Shown here one piece after another: positions 234 through 49,190 of a stretch of 64,000 bases of DNA (position 1 is its first letter; each line of letters begins with the position of its first letter). The translations under genes and the position numbers were made by a program. Location: assembly GCF_012927165.1 (NCBI RefSeq), contig NZ_JABBGA010000016.1, forward strand, positions 1 through 64,000, in the 5' to 3' direction. Under the pieces are notes generated by a model. That model ran no database searches, was not told the origin of the DNA, and saw only the letters and a program-made list of their open reading frames with translations. Source of the stretch: Zoogloea dura. GTDB lineage: Bacteria > Pseudomonadota > Gammaproteobacteria > Burkholderiales > Rhodocyclaceae.

Positions 234-280
234 CTCTCATCCTTGTCGCCCCCAGGTTCAACATCATAGAGAGGCGACAA
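1..280 (-). mobile_element. Left end of an IS3-like insertion sequence
   Basis: The minus strand from about 280 to the window edge carries the start of a transposase orfA preceded by a short leader. In the leader, TTGTCGCC at 243-250 and GGCGACAA at 273-280 form an 8-bp inverted repeat. The element interrupts lysA: the lysA frame stops matching the family at about 290-297 and runs 10 codons into foreign sequence. The exact IS tip cannot be placed because the far end and the target duplication lie outside the window. Assignment to the IS3 group rests on the orfA protein only. Confidence 0.6.
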
Positions 281-1406
281 CTATTCTGACGCGGGGGGCG
301 TGCAACACCAGCAAATCGCCCACCTGCGCCTGCGGCAAGGACCGGTGCAACACCACGCCACCGTCTCCCTGCGTAAACACATCTCCCGACTCGCACAGAG
401 GTCCGGCAACCACCGTGTCAAACTGCAGGCCATTAACCGCTGTGCCATCAGAGTGGATCAACTCCATGCCGTGGTAGGCGCCGTATAGGGCCGGGCGAAC
501 CAGATCACTGAAGCCGGCGTCCACCATCATAAAATGGTTGGCGCCCTGTTGCTTCGTGGCGCGTACCTCGGTGACCAGCACGCCGGACTCGGCCATTAAA
601 TAGCGGCCCGGTTCTATTTCCAGTTTCACTGGGTGCTCCAGCAGTTGTTCCACGGCAAGGCGCGCTGCATCCCATAACGAAAAGTAGTGCGCCGTATCCG
701 TCGTGGGTTCCCCGGCCTGGTAGGGAACGGACAGACCGCCGCCCGCGGAGATGGCGTGCAGGTCCAAACCCTGCGCATTTACTACCTCTACCAGCTTCAG
801 CATGGCACCGCACACTTTCTGCAAGTGCGCGTAGTCCACGCCTGAGCCGATGTGCATGTGCAGGCCCTGCAAGGCCAGGCCGTTGGACTTGATCTTTTCG
901 CAGGCGCGTACCAGGTCGCCATGCCAGATGCCATGCTTGCTATGCTCGCCACCGGTATTTGTTTTTTTGGAATGGCCATGCCCGAAACCTGGGTTGATGC
1001 GTAGCCACACCGGGTGCCCCGGGTTGACCGCACCCAATTGGTCCAGCATGTCCATGGAGCCGCAATTCACGGGAATATTGAGTTCCACCACGCGCGCAAG
1101 CGTAGCGCGGTCCAGAAGGTCGGCCGTGAACACGATGTCTGCGTGCCCGTTGTGCAAGCCCGGCGTAAAACCACTAGCCAACGCGCGTTCGATTTCGCCC
1201 AAAGACACCGAGTCCACCACTGCGCCCTGTCGCTTCATGAGGCGAAGGATGTGTGTATTGGAGTTGGCTTTCTGAGCGAAACGCACTACGTCAAACAAGC
1301 GCAGCGCGGCAATCTGGCGCGTAATGGTGTCGGCATCATAGATCCACAGCGGGGTACCGAACTGCTGGGCCAAAGGAGCAATGGTAGCGGGAGTAAAAGG
1401 GTTCAT
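264..1406 (-). pseudogene. lysA: Diaminopimelate decarboxylase, 3' end replaced by an IS
   Basis: The 380-residue frame matches PLP-dependent diaminopimelate decarboxylase, the last step of lysine synthesis. It shows the PLP-lysine region (VVRFAQKANSN), HMHIGSGVD, the glycine-rich SAGGGLSVP, EPGRYLMAESG and the active-site GPLCESGDV. E. coli LysA has about 420 residues and continues after 'VLH' with a D-x-GAYG segment that carries an active-site tyrosine. Here VLH is followed by ten unrelated residues (APRVRIVVASL) and a stop, next to a transposase start. So about 40-50 C-terminal residues are lost, and the product is probably inactive or unstable. The gene is divergent from lysR, as in enteric bacteria. 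ATG at 1406 is preceded by a GGGGA ribosome site. Its composition is less G+C-rich than the genes right of 8.5 kb; the host presumably has another lysA elsewhere. Confidence 0.85.
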
Positions 1407-2384: not shown

Positions 2385-2693
2385 GTTCCATAGGCATGTC
2401 CGGGATTTTGTGTAAAGCTGCCATCGGCGGCTCTTCCACCAGATGGCCGCTTTGGCTGAGGAGCCGCCACTGAGCTGAAGGGCTCGTCTTCGGCCTGAGC
2501 GGACCTTGAGCCCACAACCTTGGACAGTCGGCAGTGTGTCGCTTACCTGCCGTTGTTACCACGCCGTTTGGTCTCAAAAACCACTCCCATCACATTTTCC
2601 GCTTTCGTATAAAATCTCAAGGACTTCCAAAAAGCATTTTTTTTGCCATTTTCATGTTCTGCCCAGCAGCAGGCCACTTCCGGACGATGCGCC
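2385..2693. other. Intergenic stretch before rdrA
   Basis: There is no convincing gene here. GGCGGCTC at 2426-2433 and GAGCCGCC at 2461-2468 could pair as a hairpin behind lysR, but with a long loop and no T-tract. The right third (2560-2693) is A/T-rich, as expected for a promoter region. A 107-codon minus-strand frame through the stretch overlaps lysR and has no recognisable features. Confidence 0.5.
2608..2615 (+). promoter_or_regulatory. Possible -10 element for rdrA
   Basis: TATAAAAT at 2608-2615 lies 79 bp upstream of the chosen rdrA ATG in an A/T-rich stretch. No good -35 hexamer is seen at the usual distance, so this is a weak call. Confidence 0.3.
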
Positions 2694-5437
2694 ATGACCA
2701 CTGAAAACAGCAATATCTTCATCCCGCTGGATCAGGATGAAAGTGCCAAGCACTTCAATATCGATACGCTGCTCCCTCAGAGAATTTATAAAGAACTTGG
2801 GAAATTCGTCAGCAATGCTCTGACTACAGCAAGTCAGGTTCATCAGTCGACAAATCCTTATGACCCGGACGATCATCGCTCGCACAACGCCATTCTAGTT
2901 GCCGGCTCACGCGGCACTGGCAAAAGTTCAGTCCTAGTAAATCTAGCAGCCTATCTAAGCAATAAAGACAAAGCGGGGACAAGTGAACATGACTTCAAGG
3001 ACGTACATATCCTGAAGCCGGTCGATCCGACCCTTCTGGATGATCATGATAGTCTTTTCCTCAATGTCATCGTTGCAGCGGTACTTTCTGATCCCTGTGT
3101 GATTGAGAGACAGGAACGCCATCCGGAGAAATGCCGAGAACTGCACCAGGCCCTTTACGAACTTGGCGCCGCACTGGACAACTCCGAGTCGTACAAGATG
3201 AACAAGGGCATCGACAAGCTGCGCAATTTTGTCGGCAAAGCGCAAGTGCTGCATAAGGTACATCAATTTTTTGCAGCGGTACTGAAAGTTCTCGGTAAAA
3301 AACTCCTGGTCATAACCATTGACGACGTCGACACCTCGTTGAACCAGGCTTTCGAAAACCTTGAAGTCGTGCGGCGCTATCTGATGACGCCTTACGTGTT
3401 GCCGATCATCAGCGGCGATCTCGATCTCTATCACGATATCACCTGTCGCGACTTCCATGGCCGCCTGGTCGCTGATTCAAGCTACCAGCGAAACGCTGCC
3501 TGGGAGCGTGCCGACGATCTGGCCCGAGAATACCTTCGTAAGTTGCTCCCTTTTCCTCGTCGGTTGGACATGCCAGAAGTCAGCGAGTATTTGGAAGACA
3601 AGGACATCAAGCTTCATGAAAGTGAAGGCAATAATGGCTCACAATGGTGGTCGTTGGCATGCTTCCATGCTTGGCTCACGGCACTGCACTCTGGCCCGGT
3701 TAATGGCTTGGAAAACAGTCGCCTGACCTTGCCGATACCCAGCGTGCGCGCACTGGCCCAAATCATCGGGCGGTTTGCCAATCTGGACCAACATCTCTGG
3801 TTTCGTGCGCAAGCAGCGGACACAATGAACGAGATCAGGAAGCTTAATCGGCCAATCGATGCAGCCCGCAGCTGGCAAATGCGTGGCCTTGACTCAGCCA
3901 TCGAACATTTTAGCCAGGAGTATGAACAGGAAAGTCATCGGAACAAGCGCGGCTACGGGAGTGCCTACCGTACTTTTGTCAAAGCGCTTGACGAAACACC
4001 TTCTTCCCGTCCTTTGCCTTGGCTCAACCCGGCACTGTTTTCTCTTAGAATAGGCCTGAAGGAACACTGGAAAAGTGAACCGAAAGGAGGTGCCTGCTAC
4101 CTGATTCTGCAAGCGCAGGAGCATTGGAAGGGCAGTAGCTTTAATCCTGTCTTAAAAACTCCCTTGTTCGATCCCCTTAGCCAACAAGGTCCAGAGTTTG
4201 GTGCTTTCGTTGGCCATAGAGTTTTTCTCGATTGGCCGAAAAAGCTAGCCCTGTACATGCCGGAGGAGTGGTTGGAGCGGCTGCCAAGCAAAGCCATCCT
4301 GCCTTACCCCGTTCCGGAAGTAGGCAGCAAGGTAGCGTTGTCATGGAAATTCTGGTCTGCCGATGAAGGAAAGCAAGAGAGGAGACGGAGCCTGTTGCTG
4401 GCCTTGTTGCATCATCGCAATTTCTACGACAACGCTAAACGTTCTGGTCTCATTTGTATCGGGCGCATTGTCGAGCTGACGATTACCAGTCTGATCCGGG
4501 ATGTCTTGTCGTCGGATATTAAAGAGCTCCTGCTACGCCCGCCGTACTACTCAACTGCAGACCTCGCTCCGACCAAAACACAAAAGGATGACGCCAAAGA
4601 CGAGAGTAAAGACGCTTCCAGCGAGAATGCACAGGAGGAGTCAGGCATTGCCGAACTGCTTGAGCATCTCAGCGAAGAGATTGAGGAGTTAGCCATTGCA
4701 ATCGGCGCTTGGCGCCAAGGCAACCGCATTCCATGTCTGTCGCCCTGGCTGGTCTATAACGTGCTGAACAAAACCTTTAATCAAGCATGGATATTTAATC
4801 CACGGACGCCGAATAGTCATCCTAAAGAACCCGATGCAGTGGCCTGGATCGCAAGGCAAGCCTATTACAGCTTGTGGGCAGCCTTTGGCAGCTTTGAAAA
4901 GGGAGCGCTGTTTGGTCTGCCATCTATCGTGGCAACGACGAATATCGGTGACGGAAAAGTTTTTGAAAAAAGCGATTTGTTCAAATTAAACATTGCCCCA
5001 TTTTGGAGGGGGGCGATAACAATGACCACGTCAGAAGATTCGGTAGAGAAACTCGCTCCATCACTTATTTACTTGGCGAACACCCTTTACGTGAGTGGGT
5101 CGAGTCACTGACCTTTTCTTCCGAGAAACCAGAGATTTCACCACCAGCAGACAATAACATTGAGTTTAGCTCTCCGAAAGAACGTGCGGCAATGCAGCAG
5201 CTTTATAAAAAGATGGGAGGCAAAGGGCTGCTTCTGCTGGGCAAAGGTATGGTCTATCCCACAGAGCGTCGAGCAAGTCTTTATTTCAAAAGATCAGGCG
5301 AGGATCATGCGCGCGCTGTTGTCGATGAATTTAACGAACTTTTCCCGGGAACGGAAACAGCTGCGCGCTTCGCAAGGCTATTTTCGGAGTATTTTAATAA
5401 TCTGCCAAAAATAGACGCTCCGTCGAAACCAGCATGA
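2694..5437 (+). CDS. rdrA: RADAR anti-phage ATPase RdrA, with a frame break in a G6 run
   Basis: RdrA is the large P-loop ATPase of the RADAR defence system and works with the deaminase RdrB during phage infection. From ATG 2694 the protein starts MTTENSNIFIPLDQDESAKH. It has a Walker A (GSRGTGKS, residues 71-78) and a Walker B (LLVITIDDVD, residues 204-213). An in-frame TTG at 2643 would add 17 residues but has no better ribosome site. As written, the frame ends at 5111. In the -1 frame, from the G run at 5008-5013 on, an open frame continues to 5437 and ends in an ATGA overlap with rdrB. A single base slip there gives about 914 residues, close to the roughly 900 known for RdrA. I read both parts as one gene. 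Composition is clearly lower in G+C than in the rest of the window, which suggests transfer. Family assignment rests on the ATPase plus giant-deaminase pairing and motifs, not on a search. Confidence 0.85.
5008..5013 (+). other. rdrA: Homopolymer (six G) at the rdrA frame break
   Basis: The zero frame reads AGG GGG GCG across the run and stops at 5109-5111. Re-reading G5012 (a -1 shift) continues as GGC GAT AAC into a frame open to 5437. Loss of one G from an original run of seven, a base-calling error, or -1 slippage of a GGG-decoding tRNA would all look like this. No clear downstream stem-loop stimulator was identified. Confidence 0.6.
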
Positions 5438-8199
5438 TCCGCCGCTCTCTCTACGAAACCACGATCGGTGCTCTCCTTTCCGGGCAGGGGATTGCCAGCG
5501 TTTTTCGGGAATTTTTGCAGCAGCGGTACGGAGAGAGTTTCGCTATTTTCTGTGATGGAAAACAGCTGCTATCCCGTTGCCGTGAACAACTGGAGGAAGA
5601 GGTCGACCGCAGAGCCGGTCGTCAGTTTCGGTTAGGCGACATTGAGCGCCTTGTCGCTCTACTCTGGAATGACGACCTTCTCGGGCGAGGTCGCATGCCC
5701 GTTTTGGATCAACTTTTCCAGCAACTCATGCTGCGCAACGGTGATTTCATTCACTATCGTGACACCCAGGTTGATGCCTATGCCCGGCTCGCTACCGAGA
5801 TTGACCCTGCCTTGGTGGTTGGCTGGCATCTGGCTGGCTGGCTGGATGAAATGCCTTCGCCCCGACAGCATGATATTCAACGCATCATCGGCCAGCAGAC
5901 AGCGTTTTTTGCTCCGCCACCGGGTGGGCAGAAGTCTTATGCGGAAGGCCATGTCCACCTCGGTGGCATCGCTTACGACGGTCTGATTCTTGCCCATTTT
6001 CTGCTGGCTTCTGACGTTCAGGACGATGCCACCACGCGCTCTTTTCGTCACATGCGCGGCGTACTGCTCGCTTTGCTGCAGCGGGAACTATGGACGCCTC
6101 AAGAAGGTTGCGGAGAAATAGAACCTTGGCAGTCTGCCCTGAGTAAGGCGCTGACTGAGGAGCCAGAAAAAACGCGTTTCGACTGGGAAACCCTGTTTAA
6201 GCTCAGTTGCTATAGTAACCTTGCGATTCGCGATGTGCCTTTGCATGAACTGCTGCGCGAAATGAAATCTGCTTCGCCTAAACTGAGCCAAGCTTGGTTA
6301 TGGCTACAAGTCTGGTTGTGGCAGCGCTTCCGGCAGAGCGATACCGTGCTAGAAGTTCGCGTCGCGATACTCTGGCTGCAAATCGAACTAATGAGCCTGC
6401 GTCACCGACTGGTGATGGATGGACAAGGGCTAACGCGCTTTGCCCGTACGTACTTTCGCGAGAGTTTACGGCAAAAAGCGAAGAAAAATAGCAATAGCGA
6501 ACTGTTGGATAGCATCACCCGAATTATGGCCGGCCAAAACGACCTAGCAGAAATAAAGCTGGGAACGGGTGGTTTCTTGCCGTCAAAAATTGCATCACTT
6601 GCACGCGCAGCCATCACCGTGCAAAGACTGCCGCTCCCCAAATCAGGCGGCGCGTTTGGCATCATCAGTGCCCTGCCAGAAAGCCCGCAGCAGCAAGCAC
6701 AACTCGACGCATTGGAACGTTGGCATCTCTGTGCGCACTTTAGTCGTGCTGGTACCCCGCGTGGTAGCTCTGGCAAACTCACCACATTACCCCAGCATGA
6801 TGCGGAAAAATGCTGGAAGGAAGCGCGCCAACTGTGTAGCGACCTGATGACAGAAAGCGGCTGGAGCGATCCGGTCTTTCTCGGCGGGATGCTGAATCAG
6901 GATCATTGTTTTCAGCCCGCCCGCTGGCTACGGGGCCTAGATGTTGCCGGCGACGAAAACCGCCTAGGCATCGAGTGGTTTGCGCCGGTGCTGCGCTGGT
7001 TGCGTCGGGGTTTGGTCGGGCGGCCCTTGAGCGACAGCGCCGCTTCAACAAGCTTTCACTTGAGCATTCACGCTGGCGAAGACTATGCTCACCCGCTTTC
7101 CGGTCTGCGGCATGTTGATGAAACCGTGCGCTTTTGCGAGATGCGCGAAGGTGACCGTCTTGGACACGCGCTGGCGCTGGGGATTTCTCCTGCGTACTGG
7201 GCTGAGCGACATGGCGACATGCTGGTGCCGGTTGATGAGCATTTTGACAATCTAGTCTGGGTCTGGCATTACGCAACCGAGCTCAGCCCGTGCTTGCCGC
7301 TGGCCGCACGAATTTTGCCGCGACTAGAGCGGCGCATAGCCCATTTTGCGCGCAGGGTGGAATGGCTGGATGCCGACACCGTCCCTGATCTTTTGCTCCC
7401 GATCGGCAGCAAAAGAAAGAGGAAGGCCCACACTCAGGCCGAGATCAACTCACCGGAGAGATTGTTTCAGGCTTGGCTGCTACGTCGAAATTGTCATTTC
7501 CAGTTTCAGAAAAATGCGGACACGCCTATTTATGACGATATCTTTATGGCGGCCGTCCCGGATTTTGCACAGCTGCAGCAAGCACAAAAACTAGTTCTCA
7601 ACGGTGAAATAGATACGGGCGATGCCGCTGGCCTGTACCTGCAGCGCCAACGCTGGCAAAGGCTGAACAAGTTCGATCGGCGGATTAAGGTCTTGATCCG
7701 TTATGGCGAAGAAGCGTATGAGCGTGATAACAGGGCATTTGTCGACGAGCAGCAGATGCAGCTTGAACGCGACTGGGAAACAGCAGAAGAGCATGAATTC
7801 ATGCACGCGCTGCAGGATTACCTGCTCGACCGCTACGACCGCCTGGGGCTCATTATCGAGACCAATCCGACGTCAAACGTGTATATCGCACGTTTGGAAC
7901 AACATCGAGAGCACCCGATTTTCCGCTGGAATCCGCCCGATGCCGAAACGCTGTTGCCCGGCAATGAGCACAACCGCCACAGCCTACGCCGTGGCCCGAA
8001 CCGCGTGCTAGTCAATACCGACGATCCAGGAATCATGCCAACGAGTTTACGTACCGAGTATGCGCTGCTGCGTGAAGCAGCGATCAAGCGCGGCGTCTCG
8101 CGAACCATAGCCGAAGACTGGTTGGAGCGACTTCGGGTGTATGGCATCGAGCAATTTCACCGCAATCATTTGCCGGTATTCTCTCGCCGCCACTACTGA
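5434..8199 (+). CDS. rdrB: RADAR adenosine deaminase RdrB
   Basis: A 921-residue, greatly enlarged member of the metal-dependent adenosine deaminase superfamily. The full active-site set is visible: HVH at 173-175 (zinc ligands), HAGE at 546-549 (ligand His and catalytic Glu), GHA with H578, TNPTSN at 810-815, and NTDDPG with D863/D864. Ordinary adenosine deaminases have about 350 residues. The long insertions and N-terminal domain are typical of RdrB, which in known RADAR systems forms large shells with RdrA and deaminates adenosine in RNA or nucleotides during infection. The ATG at 5434 overlaps the upstream rdrA stop by four bases (ATGA), so the pair should be translationally coupled. No third accessory gene (membrane protein of the rdrD/Csx27 type) follows; the next genes are on the other strand and have host-like composition. 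Confidence 0.92.
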   Translation: MIRRSLYETTIGALLSGQGIASVFREFLQQRYGESFAIFCDGKQLLSRCREQLEEEVDRRAGRQFRLGDIERLVALLWNDDLLGRGRMPVLDQLFQQLMLRNGDFIHYRDTQVDAYARLATEIDPALVVGWHLAGWLDEMPSPRQHDIQRIIGQQTAFFAPPPGGQKSYAEGHVHLGGIAYDGLILAHFLLASDVQDDATTRSFRHMRGVLLALLQRELWTPQEGCGEIEPWQSALSKALTEEPEKTRFDWETLFKLSCYSNLAIRDVPLHELLREMKSASPKLSQAWLWLQVWLWQRFRQSDTVLEVRVAILWLQIELMSLRHRLVMDGQGLTRFARTYFRESLRQKAKKNSNSELLDSITRIMAGQNDLAEIKLGTGGFLPSKIASLARAAITVQRLPLPKSGGAFGIISALPESPQQQAQLDALERWHLCAHFSRAGTPRGSSGKLTTLPQHDAEKCWKEARQLCSDLMTESGWSDPVFLGGMLNQDHCFQPARWLRGLDVAGDENRLGIEWFAPVLRWLRRGLVGRPLSDSAASTSFHLSIHAGEDYAHPLSGLRHVDETVRFCEMREGDRLGHALALGISPAYWAERHGDMLVPVDEHFDNLVWVWHYATELSPCLPLAARILPRLERRIAHFARRVEWLDADTVPDLLLPIGSKRKRKAHTQAEINSPERLFQAWLLRRNCHFQFQKNADTPIYDDIFMAAVPDFAQLQQAQKLVLNGEIDTGDAAGLYLQRQRWQRLNKFDRRIKVLIRYGEEAYERDNRAFVDEQQMQLERDWETAEEHEFMHALQDYLLDRYDRLGLIIETNPTSNVYIARLEQHREHPIFRWNPPDAETLLPGNEHNRHSLRRGPNRVLVNTDDPGIMPTSLRTEYALLREAAIKRGVSRTIAEDWLERLRVYGIEQFHRNHLPVFSRRHY

Positions 8200-8481
8200 G
8201 ATCAAAGCGCGCACCATTCTTGCCTAAATTTTCAGTCGACCGAAGAATCCGTGCAAAACTATTCATGCAGATTTCTGCACCAGATCGATGCATTAGTTTG
8301 GACGCGCCAAGAACGGCAGGTAATCGACGCGTTGCCGCCCGATTTTGGCCAGAAGCCCAAGGCCTACTTAGGCCGACACCCTGTCAGACGTAACAGACCT
8401 CCGCTCAGTCAAAGCAAACAATGACCCGCATTGCGCGCACGACAGCTGCGCAGCGGTGGTCGCCGATGGCGCGACCCATCC
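8200..8481. other. Right border region of the island
   Basis: There is no supported gene between rdrB and the YeeE pair. A 57-codon frame with a GTG start (8251-8424, plus strand) is open but unrecognisable. Composition changes from island-like to host-like across this stretch, so the recombination border probably lies here. No direct repeat matching the left side was found by eye. Confidence 0.45.
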
Positions 8482-8889
8482 TCATTCCGCGCTCCATTCA
8501 CACACCTTCATGCCGGCCACCATCGCCACGGTGAAGACGACGCCCGGCAGATAGCCCGCCCCCAGGCTCACGATGCCCGGCCCGGGGCAGAATCCGGAGA
8601 GTCCCCAGCCCACGCCAAATACGGCGCTGCCGGCGATGAGGCTGCGATCGATCGTCTGGAGCGGCGTTGGGGGCATGGGGTGGCCGAGCCATGAGCGGGG
8701 CTGTTTGAGGGCCCAGGCGAAGGGCAGGCGTGCCACGCCGATGGCGCCCGCCATCACGAGGGCGAGGGATGGATCCCAGCTTCCGGCCAGATCGAGGAAG
8801 CCCAGCACCTTGGCCGGATCGCTCATTCCGGAGGCGATCAGGCCGACTCCAAAGATCAGGCCGCTGAGCAGTGCGAGTAGGGGTGTCAT
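8482..8889 (-). CDS. YeeE/YedE half permease (DUF6691 type)
   Basis: A 135-residue hydrophobic protein with about four membrane segments, starting MTPLLALLSGLIFGVGLIAS. It contains the signature GFCPGPG near residue 100, which places the conserved cysteine of the YeeE/YedE (sulfur transport, pfam04143) family in the membrane. Full-length YeeE proteins fuse two such halves; here the halves are separate genes with a 26-bp gap, this being the second. The family is linked to uptake of thiosulfate or other reduced sulfur compounds, so a role in sulfur handling is likely but the substrate is inferred. The ATG at 8889 was chosen because the longer upstream reading is arginine-rich and runs back into the preceding gene. 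Confidence 0.8.
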   Translation of the reverse strand: MTPLLALLSGLIFGVGLIASGMSDPAKVLGFLDLAGSWDPSLALVMAGAIGVARLPFAWALKQPRSWLGHPMPPTPLQTIDRSLIAGSAVFGVGWGLSGFCPGPGIVSLGAGYLPGVVFTVAMVAGMKVCEWSAE

Positions 8890-8915
8890 GTGCGTAAGCG
8901 CCGAGCGTGTTTCGG

Positions 8916-9368
8916 TTAGTTGCCAAGCGCATGTCTGGCAAGAAAGACGGTGGCAAAGCCGGACGCCATGAATACGAGCACTGCTGCCAGTGAGCGGCGG
9001 GACAGGCGTGCCAGCCCGCACACGCCGTGGCCGCTGGTACAGCCGTTGGCCAGGCGGGTGCCGAAGCCGACGAGCAGGCCTCCGACGCACAGCACGGCCC
9101 AGTCTGCCGGCCTGCTCACGGCCAGGCGCGAAACCGGCAGACCACCCGGCGCCGCGAGTGCCCAGAGGGTGGGGGCGGCGAGGAGGCCCAGGACGAAGCT
9201 GGTCTGCCAGCGCCGGTTACTGTCCGCCGGCCCCAGTAGCCCGCTGAGGATGCCGCTGATTCCGGCTATCCGTCCGTTTGCCAGCAGCAGTAATGAGGCG
9301 GCCAGCCCGATCAGGGCTCCGCCGATGAGGGCGCTCCAGGGCGAAAAATGTGTCCAGTCGATGCTCAC
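8916..9368 (-). CDS. YeeE/YedE half permease, first half
   Basis: A 150-residue membrane protein with about four hydrophobic segments. It carries the family motif NGCTSGHGVCGL (near residues 110-121), with the conserved cysteine that relays the sulfur compound in characterised YeeE thiosulfate channels. It is followed by the second half protein, so the two presumably assemble into one channel. No rhodanese, TusA-like or SoxR-type gene sits beside them; the next gene upstream is a FadL-type porin in the same direction. The specific substrate is not evident from sequence. Confidence 0.82.
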   Translation of the reverse strand: MSIDWTHFSPWSALIGGALIGLAASLLLLANGRIAGISGILSGLLGPADSNRRWQTSFVLGLLAAPTLWALAAPGGLPVSRLAVSRPADWAVLCVGGLLVGFGTRLANGCTSGHGVCGLARLSRRSLAAVLVFMASGFATVFLARHALGN

Positions 9369-9398
9369 CCGATCTCTCCTGCCGGTGTGTTCCGGGTG

Positions 9399-10682
9399 TC
9401 AGTACTTCCAGCCGTAGGCAATGGCGAAGATGTCTTCAAACATGTGCAGGTTGGCTTCGCCACCCCCAAAGCCGCCGGCAAGCGGTGAGCCCGGCGGAAT
9501 CGAGCCGCTGCCGTTAACCGTCGTCTTGAAGGCATGGGTGTAGGCAATGCTCAGTTCGCCGTCCTTGCCCTGTTTCAAGCTGGCGCCCAGGCTCAGGTGG
9601 TCCTGCACGATGCCGGGGGCCAGGATATTGAAGAAGGTCTGGCTGGACGGCACCGGCTGGGTTGCATGGCTGTAGCCGCCGCGGATTGTCCAGTCGTCGG
9701 TCAGGTCATAGGCGGCGCCGATCTTGACGACCGTTACGTCGCGCCAGCCGAAGCCGCCGCCGTTCGAGCTGCCGAGCGGGTTGCCTGCCAGCAGGTTGGC
9801 GATGGGGTTGCCAACGGATTTGATGTCGCTCAGCTCAATGCGCTGGACATCGGCGGCCAGGGTCAGGGCCTTGCTCGCCTGCCAGGCGAGACCGATACCG
9901 AAATTGGCGGGAACATCAAAGCCGCCGTCCTCGGCAAACAGGCCCTTGTACTTGTCCAAGTTGCCCATCCGGGTCTTGGTGGCGTAGGTTGCGCCGACGG
10001 TGAGTGCAGGGGTCAGCTTGCCGGTGTAGCCAATGCGCGCACCCCAGCCGGTGGAGGAGTCGGTGCCGCGATTCGTGACATTGCCTGGTGACGCCGAGGC
10101 CTGCGTGAAGGGCTGTATGCCCTTGGCCTCAAAGCGCTGGTAGGCAAGATTCAAGGCCAGGCCGATGGCATGGCTGTCGTTCAGTTTGTAGGCCAGCGAC
10201 GGTGACACGAAGAGTTGTTCGAGGTTGATGCCTGCGGGGCCTGTTCCACCGAGTCTGGCAAAAGGGTTGTTGCCGTAGTCGGTATTCATGCCGCCGTTGC
10301 CGTATACCGCGACGCCGGCCGCCCATTGCGGACCCAACTGTTTGACGTAGCCGAGTTCGGGGATGATGAAGTTCCGGGTGCCATTGCCGTCGTAATGCCC
10401 GTCGAGGCTGCCGTAGGGCCCCAGGTCGTTGCCCTTGATCTCGGCACCGCGGTTGGGCCGGAACCAGGTCACGCCAACGTCGGCGCGGTCGCCGATCCAG
10501 GCGGTTCCGGCTGGATTGGTCGCTGCGGCCAGGCCGTCCTGGGGCAGGGCGATGCCGATTCCGGCGATTCCCTGTGATTTGACCCCGTAGCCGTGGCTGA
10601 AGTAGCCATTCGTGGCAAGCGCCAGGCCGGGCGAGCAAAGACCGAGGAGCAGCATGGCAGGGGCGAGGTTTCGGCGCTTCAT
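9399..10682 (-). CDS. FadL/TodX-family outer membrane channel
   Basis: A 427-residue outer membrane beta-barrel protein of the OmpP1/FadL/TodX family, which lets hydrophobic substrates such as fatty acids or aromatic hydrocarbons cross the outer membrane. A signal peptide (MKRRNLAPAMLLLGLCSPGL) ends at ALA, followed by the family's mature N-terminus TNGYFSHGYGVKSQGIAG, which forms the plug. NPAGTAW and many alternating beta strands follow, and the chain ends with aromatic residues (IAYGWKY), as expected for barrel assembly. The ATG at 10682 is preferred over one 42 bases upstream because it starts the signal peptide and has GAGAGG upstream. The substrate is not deducible. It is transcribed toward the YeeE pair with a 30-bp gap, possibly as one operon. 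Confidence 0.88.
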   Translation of the reverse strand: MKRRNLAPAMLLLGLCSPGLALATNGYFSHGYGVKSQGIAGIGIALPQDGLAAATNPAGTAWIGDRADVGVTWFRPNRGAEIKGNDLGPYGSLDGHYDGNGTRNFIIPELGYVKQLGPQWAAGVAVYGNGGMNTDYGNNPFARLGGTGPAGINLEQLFVSPSLAYKLNDSHAIGLALNLAYQRFEAKGIQPFTQASASPGNVTNRGTDSSTGWGARIGYTGKLTPALTVGATYATKTRMGNLDKYKGLFAEDGGFDVPANFGIGLAWQASKALTLAADVQRIELSDIKSVGNPIANLLAGNPLGSSNGGGFGWRDVTVVKIGAAYDLTDDWTIRGGYSHATQPVPSSQTFFNILAPGIVQDHLSLGASLKQGKDGELSIAYTHAFKTTVNGSGSIPPGSPLAGGFGGGEANLHMFEDIFAIAYGWKY

Positions 10683-10949
10683 CTTGAGGATTGCCTCTCT
10701 TGGCGGATATGGGGGCTGGAGCAAAGAGGCTAACCGTCAGCAAAACCGAAACGAACCAACATATTTGACTTTGCTTATGAGTCGCTGGCCAAGGCGTGCT
10801 GCCGGAGGGGGCCAGGCTTGCGAGGCAGGCAGCCCGACCATCATCCGGATCGGCAGATGCGGGCGGGTTGATTCAGAGGCTGGGTTAAGAAAGCCTTAAG
10901 CCGGAGTCGAGAGAATAAGAAAATTCTTCTCGATCATGGGAGCCTGGGC

Positions 10950-46972: not shown

Positions 46973-48304
46973 TCACAAGTCCAGGAAGCCGGCTTCCTTC
47001 AGGCCGCAGCGTTTGAGGATGCTGCGGGCCGCGACGATGCCGCTGCGTACGGCGGATTCCAGGGTGGCGGGGTAGTCCGAGGCGACATAGTCACCGGCGA
47101 GCCACACCCTTGGTTCGGCCGTGTTGGTGGTCGGGCGGACCAGCCCCGGGGTGCACGCAAAGGTGGCCCGCTTCTCGGTGATGATCTGTGACCACTTGAG
47201 GGCCGGCAGGCGCCCGAGGGCGCCCTGCAGTTCCTCCAGCAGGGCGATCTCCAGGGCCTCGCGGCTGATCTCCTGGTGGGCGCCGCGGGCGCTGATGACC
47301 ACGCTGACCAGGCCTTCCGGTCCGCCCAGGGCGGCACGGTCGAAGGCCCACTGGCCGTAGCCGCCGGCCAGGCCGATCATCGGTTCGGGGAAATGCACCG
47401 GGCCATCGAAGGCCAACCAGGCGGTGACGATGGGCTCGTGCTTCAGCGCGGCGACCTGTGCGGCCAGCGGCGCCAGGGCCGGCACGGACTGCAGCAGCGG
47501 AACGGCGTGATAGGGCGCGGTGGCGATCACGACGTGGTCGTGCAGGTTCTGCCAGGGGTCGCCGTCCAGGCGGTAGCCCTTGCCGTCCTCGTCCCACTGG
47601 ATCGATGCGATGGCCTCGGTGGTGCGCACCTGGTGGCCGCGCATGGCCAGCCAGCGGGAAGCCGGCACCGGGAACAGCTCGGACAGGTCCACCTTCGGGA
47701 TCAGCAGGTCGGACGCCGAGGCGGAGGCCGCCAGGCTGTCGCGCAGCACGTTGGCAAAGACCTGGGCTGAGGCGCTGGCCACGGGGGTGTTGAGGGCGGC
47801 GACGCAGAGGGGCTCCCAGATCAGCCGGGACAGCCTTTCGGTCTGGCCGGTCTCTGCCAGCAGCTCTGCCACGCTGCGGTCGGGCTCGACCCGGAAACGC
47901 AGCTTCTTGAGATGGCTCATCAGCCGCGCCATGGCCCGCTTGTCTGACCAATCCAGACCCTTGGCGGTGAGCAGCCCGACCGCCAGATGCAAGGGGGCGG
48001 GCAGGGCGGCGGCCTTGAGGCTGCACAGGCCGGGGTAGACCAGGGCCAGCCTGCGGGTTTCGAGGACGCCGGGCTTCACGCCCACCAGGCGCAGCATGCG
48101 CAGTGTCTCCTCGTAGGCGCCGAGAAGGATGTGCTGGCCGTTGTCGAGACGATGCTCGTCCTTCTCGACGACCCGGGCGCGACCGCCCAGGGTGCGCGAG
48201 GATTCGTACAGAAAGACCCGGGCGCCACCGCGGGCGAGGGTCACGGCGGCGGCAAAGCCGGCATAGCCGCCGCCGATGATGCCGACCTGGACAGGCAGGC
48301 TCAT
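46973..48304 (-). CDS. hpnE: Hydroxysqualene dehydroxylase HpnE
   Basis: A 443-residue FAD-dependent amine-oxidase-like protein, HpnE, which removes the hydroxyl group from hydroxysqualene to give squalene, the precursor of hopanoids. The dinucleotide-binding motif GIIGGGYAGFAAAVTLARGG is at the start; LGGRARV, DNGQHILLGAY, and near the end WLAGDYVASDYPATLESAVRSG are typical of phytoene desaturase-like enzymes of this group. It is the last gene of hpnC-hpnD-hpnE. A squalene-hopene cyclase (hpnF/shc) is not in the window. Confidence 0.93.
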   Translation of the reverse strand: MSLPVQVGIIGGGYAGFAAAVTLARGGARVFLYESSRTLGGRARVVEKDEHRLDNGQHILLGAYEETLRMLRLVGVKPGVLETRRLALVYPGLCSLKAAALPAPLHLAVGLLTAKGLDWSDKRAMARLMSHLKKLRFRVEPDRSVAELLAETGQTERLSRLIWEPLCVAALNTPVASASAQVFANVLRDSLAASASASDLLIPKVDLSELFPVPASRWLAMRGHQVRTTEAIASIQWDEDGKGYRLDGDPWQNLHDHVVIATAPYHAVPLLQSVPALAPLAAQVAALKHEPIVTAWLAFDGPVHFPEPMIGLAGGYGQWAFDRAALGGPEGLVSVVISARGAHQEISREALEIALLEELQGALGRLPALKWSQIITEKRATFACTPGLVRPTTNTAEPRVWLAGDYVASDYPATLESAVRSGIVAARSILKRCGLKEAGFLDL

Positions 48305-48353
48305 CGGGCTGCCTCTCGCGCCTTGCCGTGAGCGTGGGTCAGCGGCACGGTAC

Positions 48354-49190
48354 TCATCCCAGGAACCAGGTACGACCGGCGATCCAGATCTTGCGCAGGG
48401 GCGTCAGCGAGGTGCGGCGGTCGAGCACCTGGAAGCCGTCTGCCTCGATCTCGTCGAGCAGGGTGCGGTAGATGGCGGCCATGATCAGGCCCGGGCGCTG
48501 GGCCTTGCGGTCTTCGGCCGGCAGCTGGGCGAAGGCCTGGTCGTAGAGCTGGCGCGCCCGCGAGGCCTGGAAGGCCATCAGCTGGCGGAAGTTGTCGTCG
48601 TACTTGCCGTCGAGGATCTGGCGCGCCGGAACGTTGAACTTCTGCAACTCGTCGATGGGCAGGTAGATACGGCCGCGGCGGGCGTCCTCCCCCACATCGC
48701 GGATGATGTTGGTGAGCTGGAAGGCCAGCCCCAGATCGTGGGCGTACTTGAGGGTCTGGCGGTTGGTGTAGCCGAAGATCTCGGCCGACAGCAGGCCGAC
48801 CACGCTGGCCACCCGGTAGCAGTAGAGATGCAGGGCCTTCCAGTCCAGGTAGCGGGTCTGCTGGAGGTCCATCTGCATGCCGTCGATGATCTCCAGCAGC
48901 TGCTCGCGGGGCAGGCTGAAGCGCGTGGACACGTCCTTCAGGGCCAGGCCCACCGGGTGGCTGGGGTTGCCATCGACGATCTGCCGGACTTCATTGCGCC
49001 ACCAGTCCAGCTTGGTCTGGGCGATCTGCATGTCGTGGCATTCGTCCACCACGTCGTCCACCTCGCGGCAGAAGGCGTACAGCGCTGTGATGGCCTGGCG
49101 CCGTTCGGGGGGCAGGAACATGAAGCTGTAGTAGAAGCTGGAGCCGCTGCTGGCGGCTTTTTCCTGGCAGTAGGCGTGGGGATCGGTCAT
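48354..49190 (-). CDS. hpnD: Presqualene diphosphate synthase HpnD
   Basis: A 278-residue squalene/phytoene synthase-family enzyme that joins two farnesyl diphosphates to presqualene diphosphate. The aspartate-rich motifs are visible as FCREVDDVVDE (first DxxxD) and QLTNIIRDVGEDARRGRIYLP (second). The start MTDPHAYCQEKAASSGSSFY at 49190 is typical of HpnD. It is five bases after hpnC and 49 bases before hpnE, so the three are one operon. Confidence 0.94.
   Translation of the reverse strand: MTDPHAYCQEKAASSGSSFYYSFMFLPPERRQAITALYAFCREVDDVVDECHDMQIAQTKLDWWRNEVRQIVDGNPSHPVGLALKDVSTRFSLPREQLLEIIDGMQMDLQQTRYLDWKALHLYCYRVASVVGLLSAEIFGYTNRQTLKYAHDLGLAFQLTNIIRDVGEDARRGRIYLPIDELQKFNVPARQILDGKYDDNFRQLMAFQASRARQLYDQAFAQLPAEDRKAQRPGLIMAAIYRTLLDEIEADGFQVLDRRTSLTPLRKIWIAGRTWFLG

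Follow-up and report, generated by a model that had tools for sequence, protein, structure and literature searches.

In intact RADAR systems, a heptameric ring of the AAA+ protein RdrA docks on a dodecameric shell of RdrB, and upon phage infection RdrA drives RdrB to convert ATP and dATP to ITP and dITP, by which the nucleotide pool is proposed to be poisoned. The portions of PMC9994260 used here describe how RdrA and RdrB assemble and how infection leads to (d)ATP being converted to (d)ITP, report that defence is lost after mutating either active site and that overexpressed RdrB is toxic on its own, and suggest the C-terminal lobe of RdrA as the phage sensor. According to the same portions, RADAR occurs in 270 of about 38,000 genomes (PMC9994260). 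Variants containing an additional SLATT membrane protein or Csx27 are mentioned in the sections of PMC11676413 that we drew on; these sections also mention Accumulibacter, though not together with RADAR but solely in connection with CRISPR-Cas and prophages. Our literature search, which was limited in scope, yielded nothing pointing to RADAR in Rhodocyclaceae.

The window, i.e., the whole stretch of 64,000 nucleotides from Zoogloea dura that was analysed, contains a locus at 2694-8199 which is a RADAR locus, as established by profile matches of both proteins, sequence matches in the PDB, predicted folds and conserved catalytic residues. The features are listed in Table 1. A first-pass annotation made from the sequence had already proposed RADAR here, with a P-loop ATPase gene upstream of a gene for a 921-residue adenosine deaminase, and these parts of the proposal stand: rdrA is located directly 5' of rdrB on the same strand, and the ORF at 5434-8199 contains the deaminase motifs HVH, HAGED, GHA, TNPTSN and TDD. 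The suggested profile search gave strong matches, the PADLOC model for RdrA aligning with the product of 2694-5111 at 1.3e-231 (profile positions 3-767 of 900) and the one for RdrB with the product of 5434-8199 at 1.7e-302 (positions 1-912 of 914). Matches to Pfam families were weak and general, with AAA_16 slightly below the cut-off for RdrA and A_deaminase at 3.8e-04, also below the cut-off, for RdrB.

Table 1. Features of the RADAR locus and its flanks (positions refer to the window).
Feature	Position	Strand	Remarks
rdrA, frame-0 part (AAA+ ATPase domain, most of C-terminal lobe)	2694..5111	+	805 aa
Reading-frame break site in rdrA	5003..5024	+	six-G run at 5008-5013 inside
rdrA, shifted-frame part (C-terminal piece, conserved HPL motif)	5003..5437	+	144 aa
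rdrB, intact, predicted (d)ATP deaminase of RADAR type	5434..8199	+	921 aa
End of left-flank homology to six congeners	2393..2468	.	comparison with congeners
Right flank: YeeE/DUF6691 pair and FadL-type outer membrane gene, outside RADAR	8465..10780	-	81% to G1052

Searching the PDB sequences with limits of 0.001 and 0.1, we found 8fnv/8fnw for RdrB (7e-20) and 8hr7/8fnt for RdrA (about 3e-09), all matching over parts only, and no other entries for either protein at these limits; the shifted piece of rdrA used alone retrieved nothing meaningful. Structures were predicted by AlphaFold2 with mean pLDDT values of 75.8 for the frame-0 part of RdrA and 83.3 for RdrB, and solved RADAR chains accounted for all Foldseek hits at E<=0.001 with either model (20/20 and 8/8, respectively), including the top hits 8hr8_F for RdrA (4.8e-15, TM 0.50, rmsd 14.6) and 8hr7_C for RdrB (4.5e-19, TM 0.58, rmsd 8.1), which represent moderate overlaps. 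The histidine tetrad and the catalytic glutamate of RdrB (H173, H175, H546, E549 and H578) are invariant among 23 aligned RdrB sequences, and the spacings of 3 residues between H546 and E549 and of 32 between H546 and H578 are identical to those of H498, E501 and H530 in the E. coli enzyme, as given in the portions of PMC9994260 consulted. The RdrA residues G76-K77, D210-D211 and D242 are likewise invariant among 22 aligned RdrA sequences and align in the PDB chains with the stretches containing the Walker A, Walker B and sensor 1 residues of E. coli RdrA, which are named in the same portions of PMC9994260.

The proposed two-gene layout holds for the protein families and the gene order, but not for an intact rdrA gene. 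An ATPase of about 914 residues encoded in one frame, as had been claimed, does not exist here: the frame starting with the ATG at 2694 stops at 5111 after 805 codons (an alternative start at 2643 would extend the product to 822 residues with the same end). Because the 2744 bases from 2694 to 5437 are not a multiple of three, there is no frame for a 914-residue ATPase. The reported 4-base overlap with the ATG of rdrB does exist, but the stop codon involved belongs to another frame, which is open from 5003 to 5437. The product of this frame was matched by the PADLOC RdrA model at 1.2e-06 over profile positions 777-882; because the same model matches both pieces consecutively (3-767, then 777-882), they represent one broken gene. 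Homology of the frame-0 product to its relatives extends through the motif FKLNIAPFW, then ends, and resumes in the other frame as GRETRSITYLLGEHPLREW, which places the frame switch within about 5003-5024, around the six G at 5008-5013 and about 84% along rdrA. The last 30 or so residues of the frame-0 product are therefore outside of the ancestral frame, and no single open rdrA frame runs through the C-terminal lobe.

To compare the break with other loci, we used a profile of 849 positions built from 47 rdrA frames and run on the window and 78 other RADAR-type loci. The window was matched in two frames, the first ending at profile position 723 and the second covering 727-839. Among the other loci, 76 were matched and two were not (L062 and L022), and a two-frame match at E<=0.001 was found in none of the 78, a number which exceeds that of the informative loci because it includes at least two duplicates (L017/L087 and L018/L056), some pieces at contig edges and a distant group matched over the ATPase domain only. 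Because rdrA does not consist of one open frame, the apparently intact system becomes either a probably inactive one or the product of an assembly error. No second RADAR copy able to supply RdrA was found in the genome, which contains a single place each for RdrA and RdrB.

Beyond the break, rdrA encodes an HP[LIV] motif close to where the C-terminal lobe ends, and this motif is almost universal in the aligned rows: of those with a letter at the respective position, 60 of 63 contain the histidine and 61 of 63 the proline. The window contains this motif in the shifted frame only. Some RdrA proteins end soon after the HP motif (L064, L076, L081, L084 and L056/L018), and their rdrA profile matches reach only to positions 752-756; in L064, RdrA comprises 775 residues from stop to stop. 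Such naturally short RdrA proteins imply that losing only the far C-terminus is not necessarily fatal. In L056/L018 (Aquaspirillum serpens), a tail-like reading in another frame was noticed by eye at 5640-6000 of L056, and this rdrA gene is possibly a second damaged one.

The junction between the two genes is similarly affected. The alignment-based scan gave 21 loci with an RdrB match starting at residue 1. All of them have their rdrA stop within -8 to +7 bases of the rdrB start, with a one-base overlap in 14. Outside of this set, the junctions of L016, L017, L020, L023 and L024 range between -4 and +7, whereas L018/L056 exhibits a gap of 211 bases from rdrA to rdrB and thus represents an exception to the tight junction. 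In the window, the frame-0 stop is located 322 bases before rdrB, while the stop of the shifted frame overlaps it by 4 bases. Translation of rdrA and rdrB may be coupled; if such coupling holds, the break in rdrA also lowers the amount of RdrB. Scanning for promoters and terminators gave counts not above those in shuffled sequences.

The locus differs from its surroundings in base composition, as noted from the beginning: the G+C content is 50.5% for rdrA and 55.6% for rdrB, compared to 68.2% for positions 8481-64000 of the window. Together with the patchy presence in the genus and a variable site alongside, this lends support to the earlier designation as an acquired region, and the RADAR operon probably entered the genome by horizontal transfer. 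For searching the genome contigs, a single protein query yielded no relative, while the alignment-based scan yielded 70. Within the genus, RdrB occurred in 2 of 23 genomes; among the genomes sampled more widely, it occurred in 3 of 296 from the family and 8 of 399 from the order. Each count includes the genome studied here, which was the only one with RdrB among 369 sampled from the class. This presence is too patchy for a housekeeping role, and we discarded that possibility. The second RdrB of the genus (L138 on G1054:C431) is a fragment at a contig edge with 59% identity; by eye, it is followed by a response-regulator-like gene, not by a YeeE pair.

The left flank of the window is shared with six congeners at 95-97% identity from position 299 to 2393-2468. 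Beyond this point, the six no longer resemble the window and have little in common with one another, except for a piece shared by L045 and L048. The region at 2385-2470, just after the LysR gene, thus constitutes a variable site, at which transposase-like remnants were seen by eye in some congeners. A simple empty site was not found, as the right flank of the window remained unmatched in stretches of 16-18 kb from the six congeners sharing the left flank. The lysA-like gene further upstream (264-1406, minus strand) loses its homology to the six congeners at 299, and its 3' end, as present in L044, appears by eye to be replaced by sequence resembling part of a transposase gene, in which a perfect inverted repeat of 19 bases occurs (62-80/83-101). 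The operon is bracketed by two inverted copies of a diverged repeat of about 70-110 bases (2445-2554 and 8311-8381), and related sequence adjoins the lysA-like gene in G190 and G094 (69-75% identity); this repeat may be the remnant of a mobile element. With regard to possible carriers, 50,697 phage records contained nothing matching RdrB at E<=1e-5, viral contigs gave no match in two pattern-led scans, and seven plasmid records matched without any of them covering 80% of the query. Therefore, these scans gave no direct sign of such a carrier of a close relative.

The scanned flanking genes code for a LysR regulator, a lysA-like decarboxylase, the YeeE/DUF6691 pair and an outer membrane protein, and a PADLOC scan covering the LysR and lysA-like genes gave no match. 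Within this scope, no accessory gene of the SLATT or Csx27 type was recognised among the neighbours, nor any other third gene of the system, in agreement with the first-pass annotation.

Considering all these data, we regard it as probable, with appreciable room for doubt, that the RADAR operon was acquired horizontally, that the break in rdrA is real, and that the operon is probably inactive or much weakened. The operon would have been acquired beside a position occupied by other DNA in congeners. The break would then have removed the final conserved portion of the C-terminal lobe and with it the near-universal HP motif, and translation would stop so far ahead of rdrB that the latter should be poorly translated. 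The catalytic parts are intact, but the end of the putative sensor lobe of RdrA is out of frame. The loss of this part of the lobe together with the 322-base gap leads us to expect an operon which is inactive or much weakened. We infer that the break exists in the organism itself, that it abolishes defence and that the expression of rdrB falls.

The main competitor of a real lesion is a mistake at the G run in the assembly or its consensus, in which case the RADAR operon of the organism would be intact and ordinary. Indel errors classically occur at runs such as these six G, with which the frame switch coincides; moreover, all remaining parts are open and conserved, and the shifted frame yields the expected close junction to rdrB. 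Both rdrA pieces and rdrB are otherwise open, as is expected either for an error or for a very recent lesion, and the evidence for the break comes from one assembly. To judge the quality of the contig, we compared ORFs from four congeners (G190, G1057, G1052 and G212) with it, resulting in 36 comparisons whose spans total 45,959 bases between 8.5 and 66.6 kb, with none in 10.7-18.3 kb, and which detect only breaks with both pieces matching at 1e-15. While 33 comparisons were unflagged, three were flagged and rejected as breaks: one was a 41.7% match judged to lie in a non-coding frame, one a 29.9% match to a neighbouring paralogue, and the one at 46994-49170 followed a frame other than that coding for the squalene/phytoene synthase there, as indicated by Pfam and frame arithmetic. 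Although the window contains 21 runs of six or more G or C, the 36 comparisons thus revealed no broken coding frame elsewhere on the contig, in a test that is rough because some matches are partial and some may lie in non-coding frames. This suggests that the contig is not generally rich in indels and argues for a real lesion, even though a single run can still be wrong. We therefore favour a real and recent lesion over an assembly error, which we regard as less likely but quite possible.

It is very unlikely that the frame change is put to use as a regulatory switch, with ribosomal or transcriptional slippage yielding some full-length RdrA, or with the length of the run turning the system on and off, so that RdrA and, via coupling, RdrB would be adjusted and a costly abortive system kept mostly off. 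The G run is situated exactly at the place of the switch, a glycine tRNA on GGG in the P site could conceivably re-pair one base back, and the downstream frame is conserved, but a canonical X XXY YYZ heptamer is absent from the frame-0 register, the downstream RNA folds no better than shuffled sequences (z 0.03), and none of the relatives scanned showed a two-frame rdrA match. Programmed -1 frameshifting was dropped as the leading view for lack of an in-register heptamer and of unusual downstream structure; for phase variation, six G would be a short run, which counts against switching by run length. Least probable of all is a real break whose 805-residue product still works as a naturally shortened RdrA, as short RdrA proteins do exist and the ATPase motifs are intact here, but the homology ends at profile position 723, before the HP motif kept by the short forms, and residues 790-805 of the frame-0 tail are predicted with pLDDT values under 50.

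These results correct the view of an apparently intact defence system, in that the pair is RADAR while one of its genes cannot be read in the way proposed. A real break would make this locus a natural case of an RdrA protein lacking the end of its C-terminal lobe, the phage sensor proposed in the portions of PMC9994260 cited above. The near-universal HP motif and the mostly tight rdrA-rdrB junction are modest, testable points about RADAR systems. The kind of system is already known and rare, and the present locus adds a member to it that is probably broken.

Among the known systems, the CARF-fused adenosine deaminase Cad1 is similar in that it is reported to be an ITP-making deaminase of antiviral defence, but the CARF_ADA model matches the locus only weakly and over a short part (E 0.031). 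The E. coli-type RADAR systems (8fnt/8fnv/8fnw/8hr7/8hr8) share with it the gene order, the common strand, the profiles, both folds, the Walker and sensor 1 residues and the deaminase histidines and glutamate, whereas RdrB is longer here (921 vs. 798-799 residues) and remote in sequence, and rdrA is broken in the present assembly. The RdrB identities to all 22 aligned relatives range from 35 to 48%, and those to the RADAR branch defined by the PADLOC models PDLC02216/PDLC02219 amount to 45-48%, as determined for loci of Enterobacter (L051), Rahnella (L052), Kosakonia (L053), Chromobacterium (L054) and Pseudoduganella (L065/L067). Unlike in the window, rdrA of this branch is matched in one open frame.
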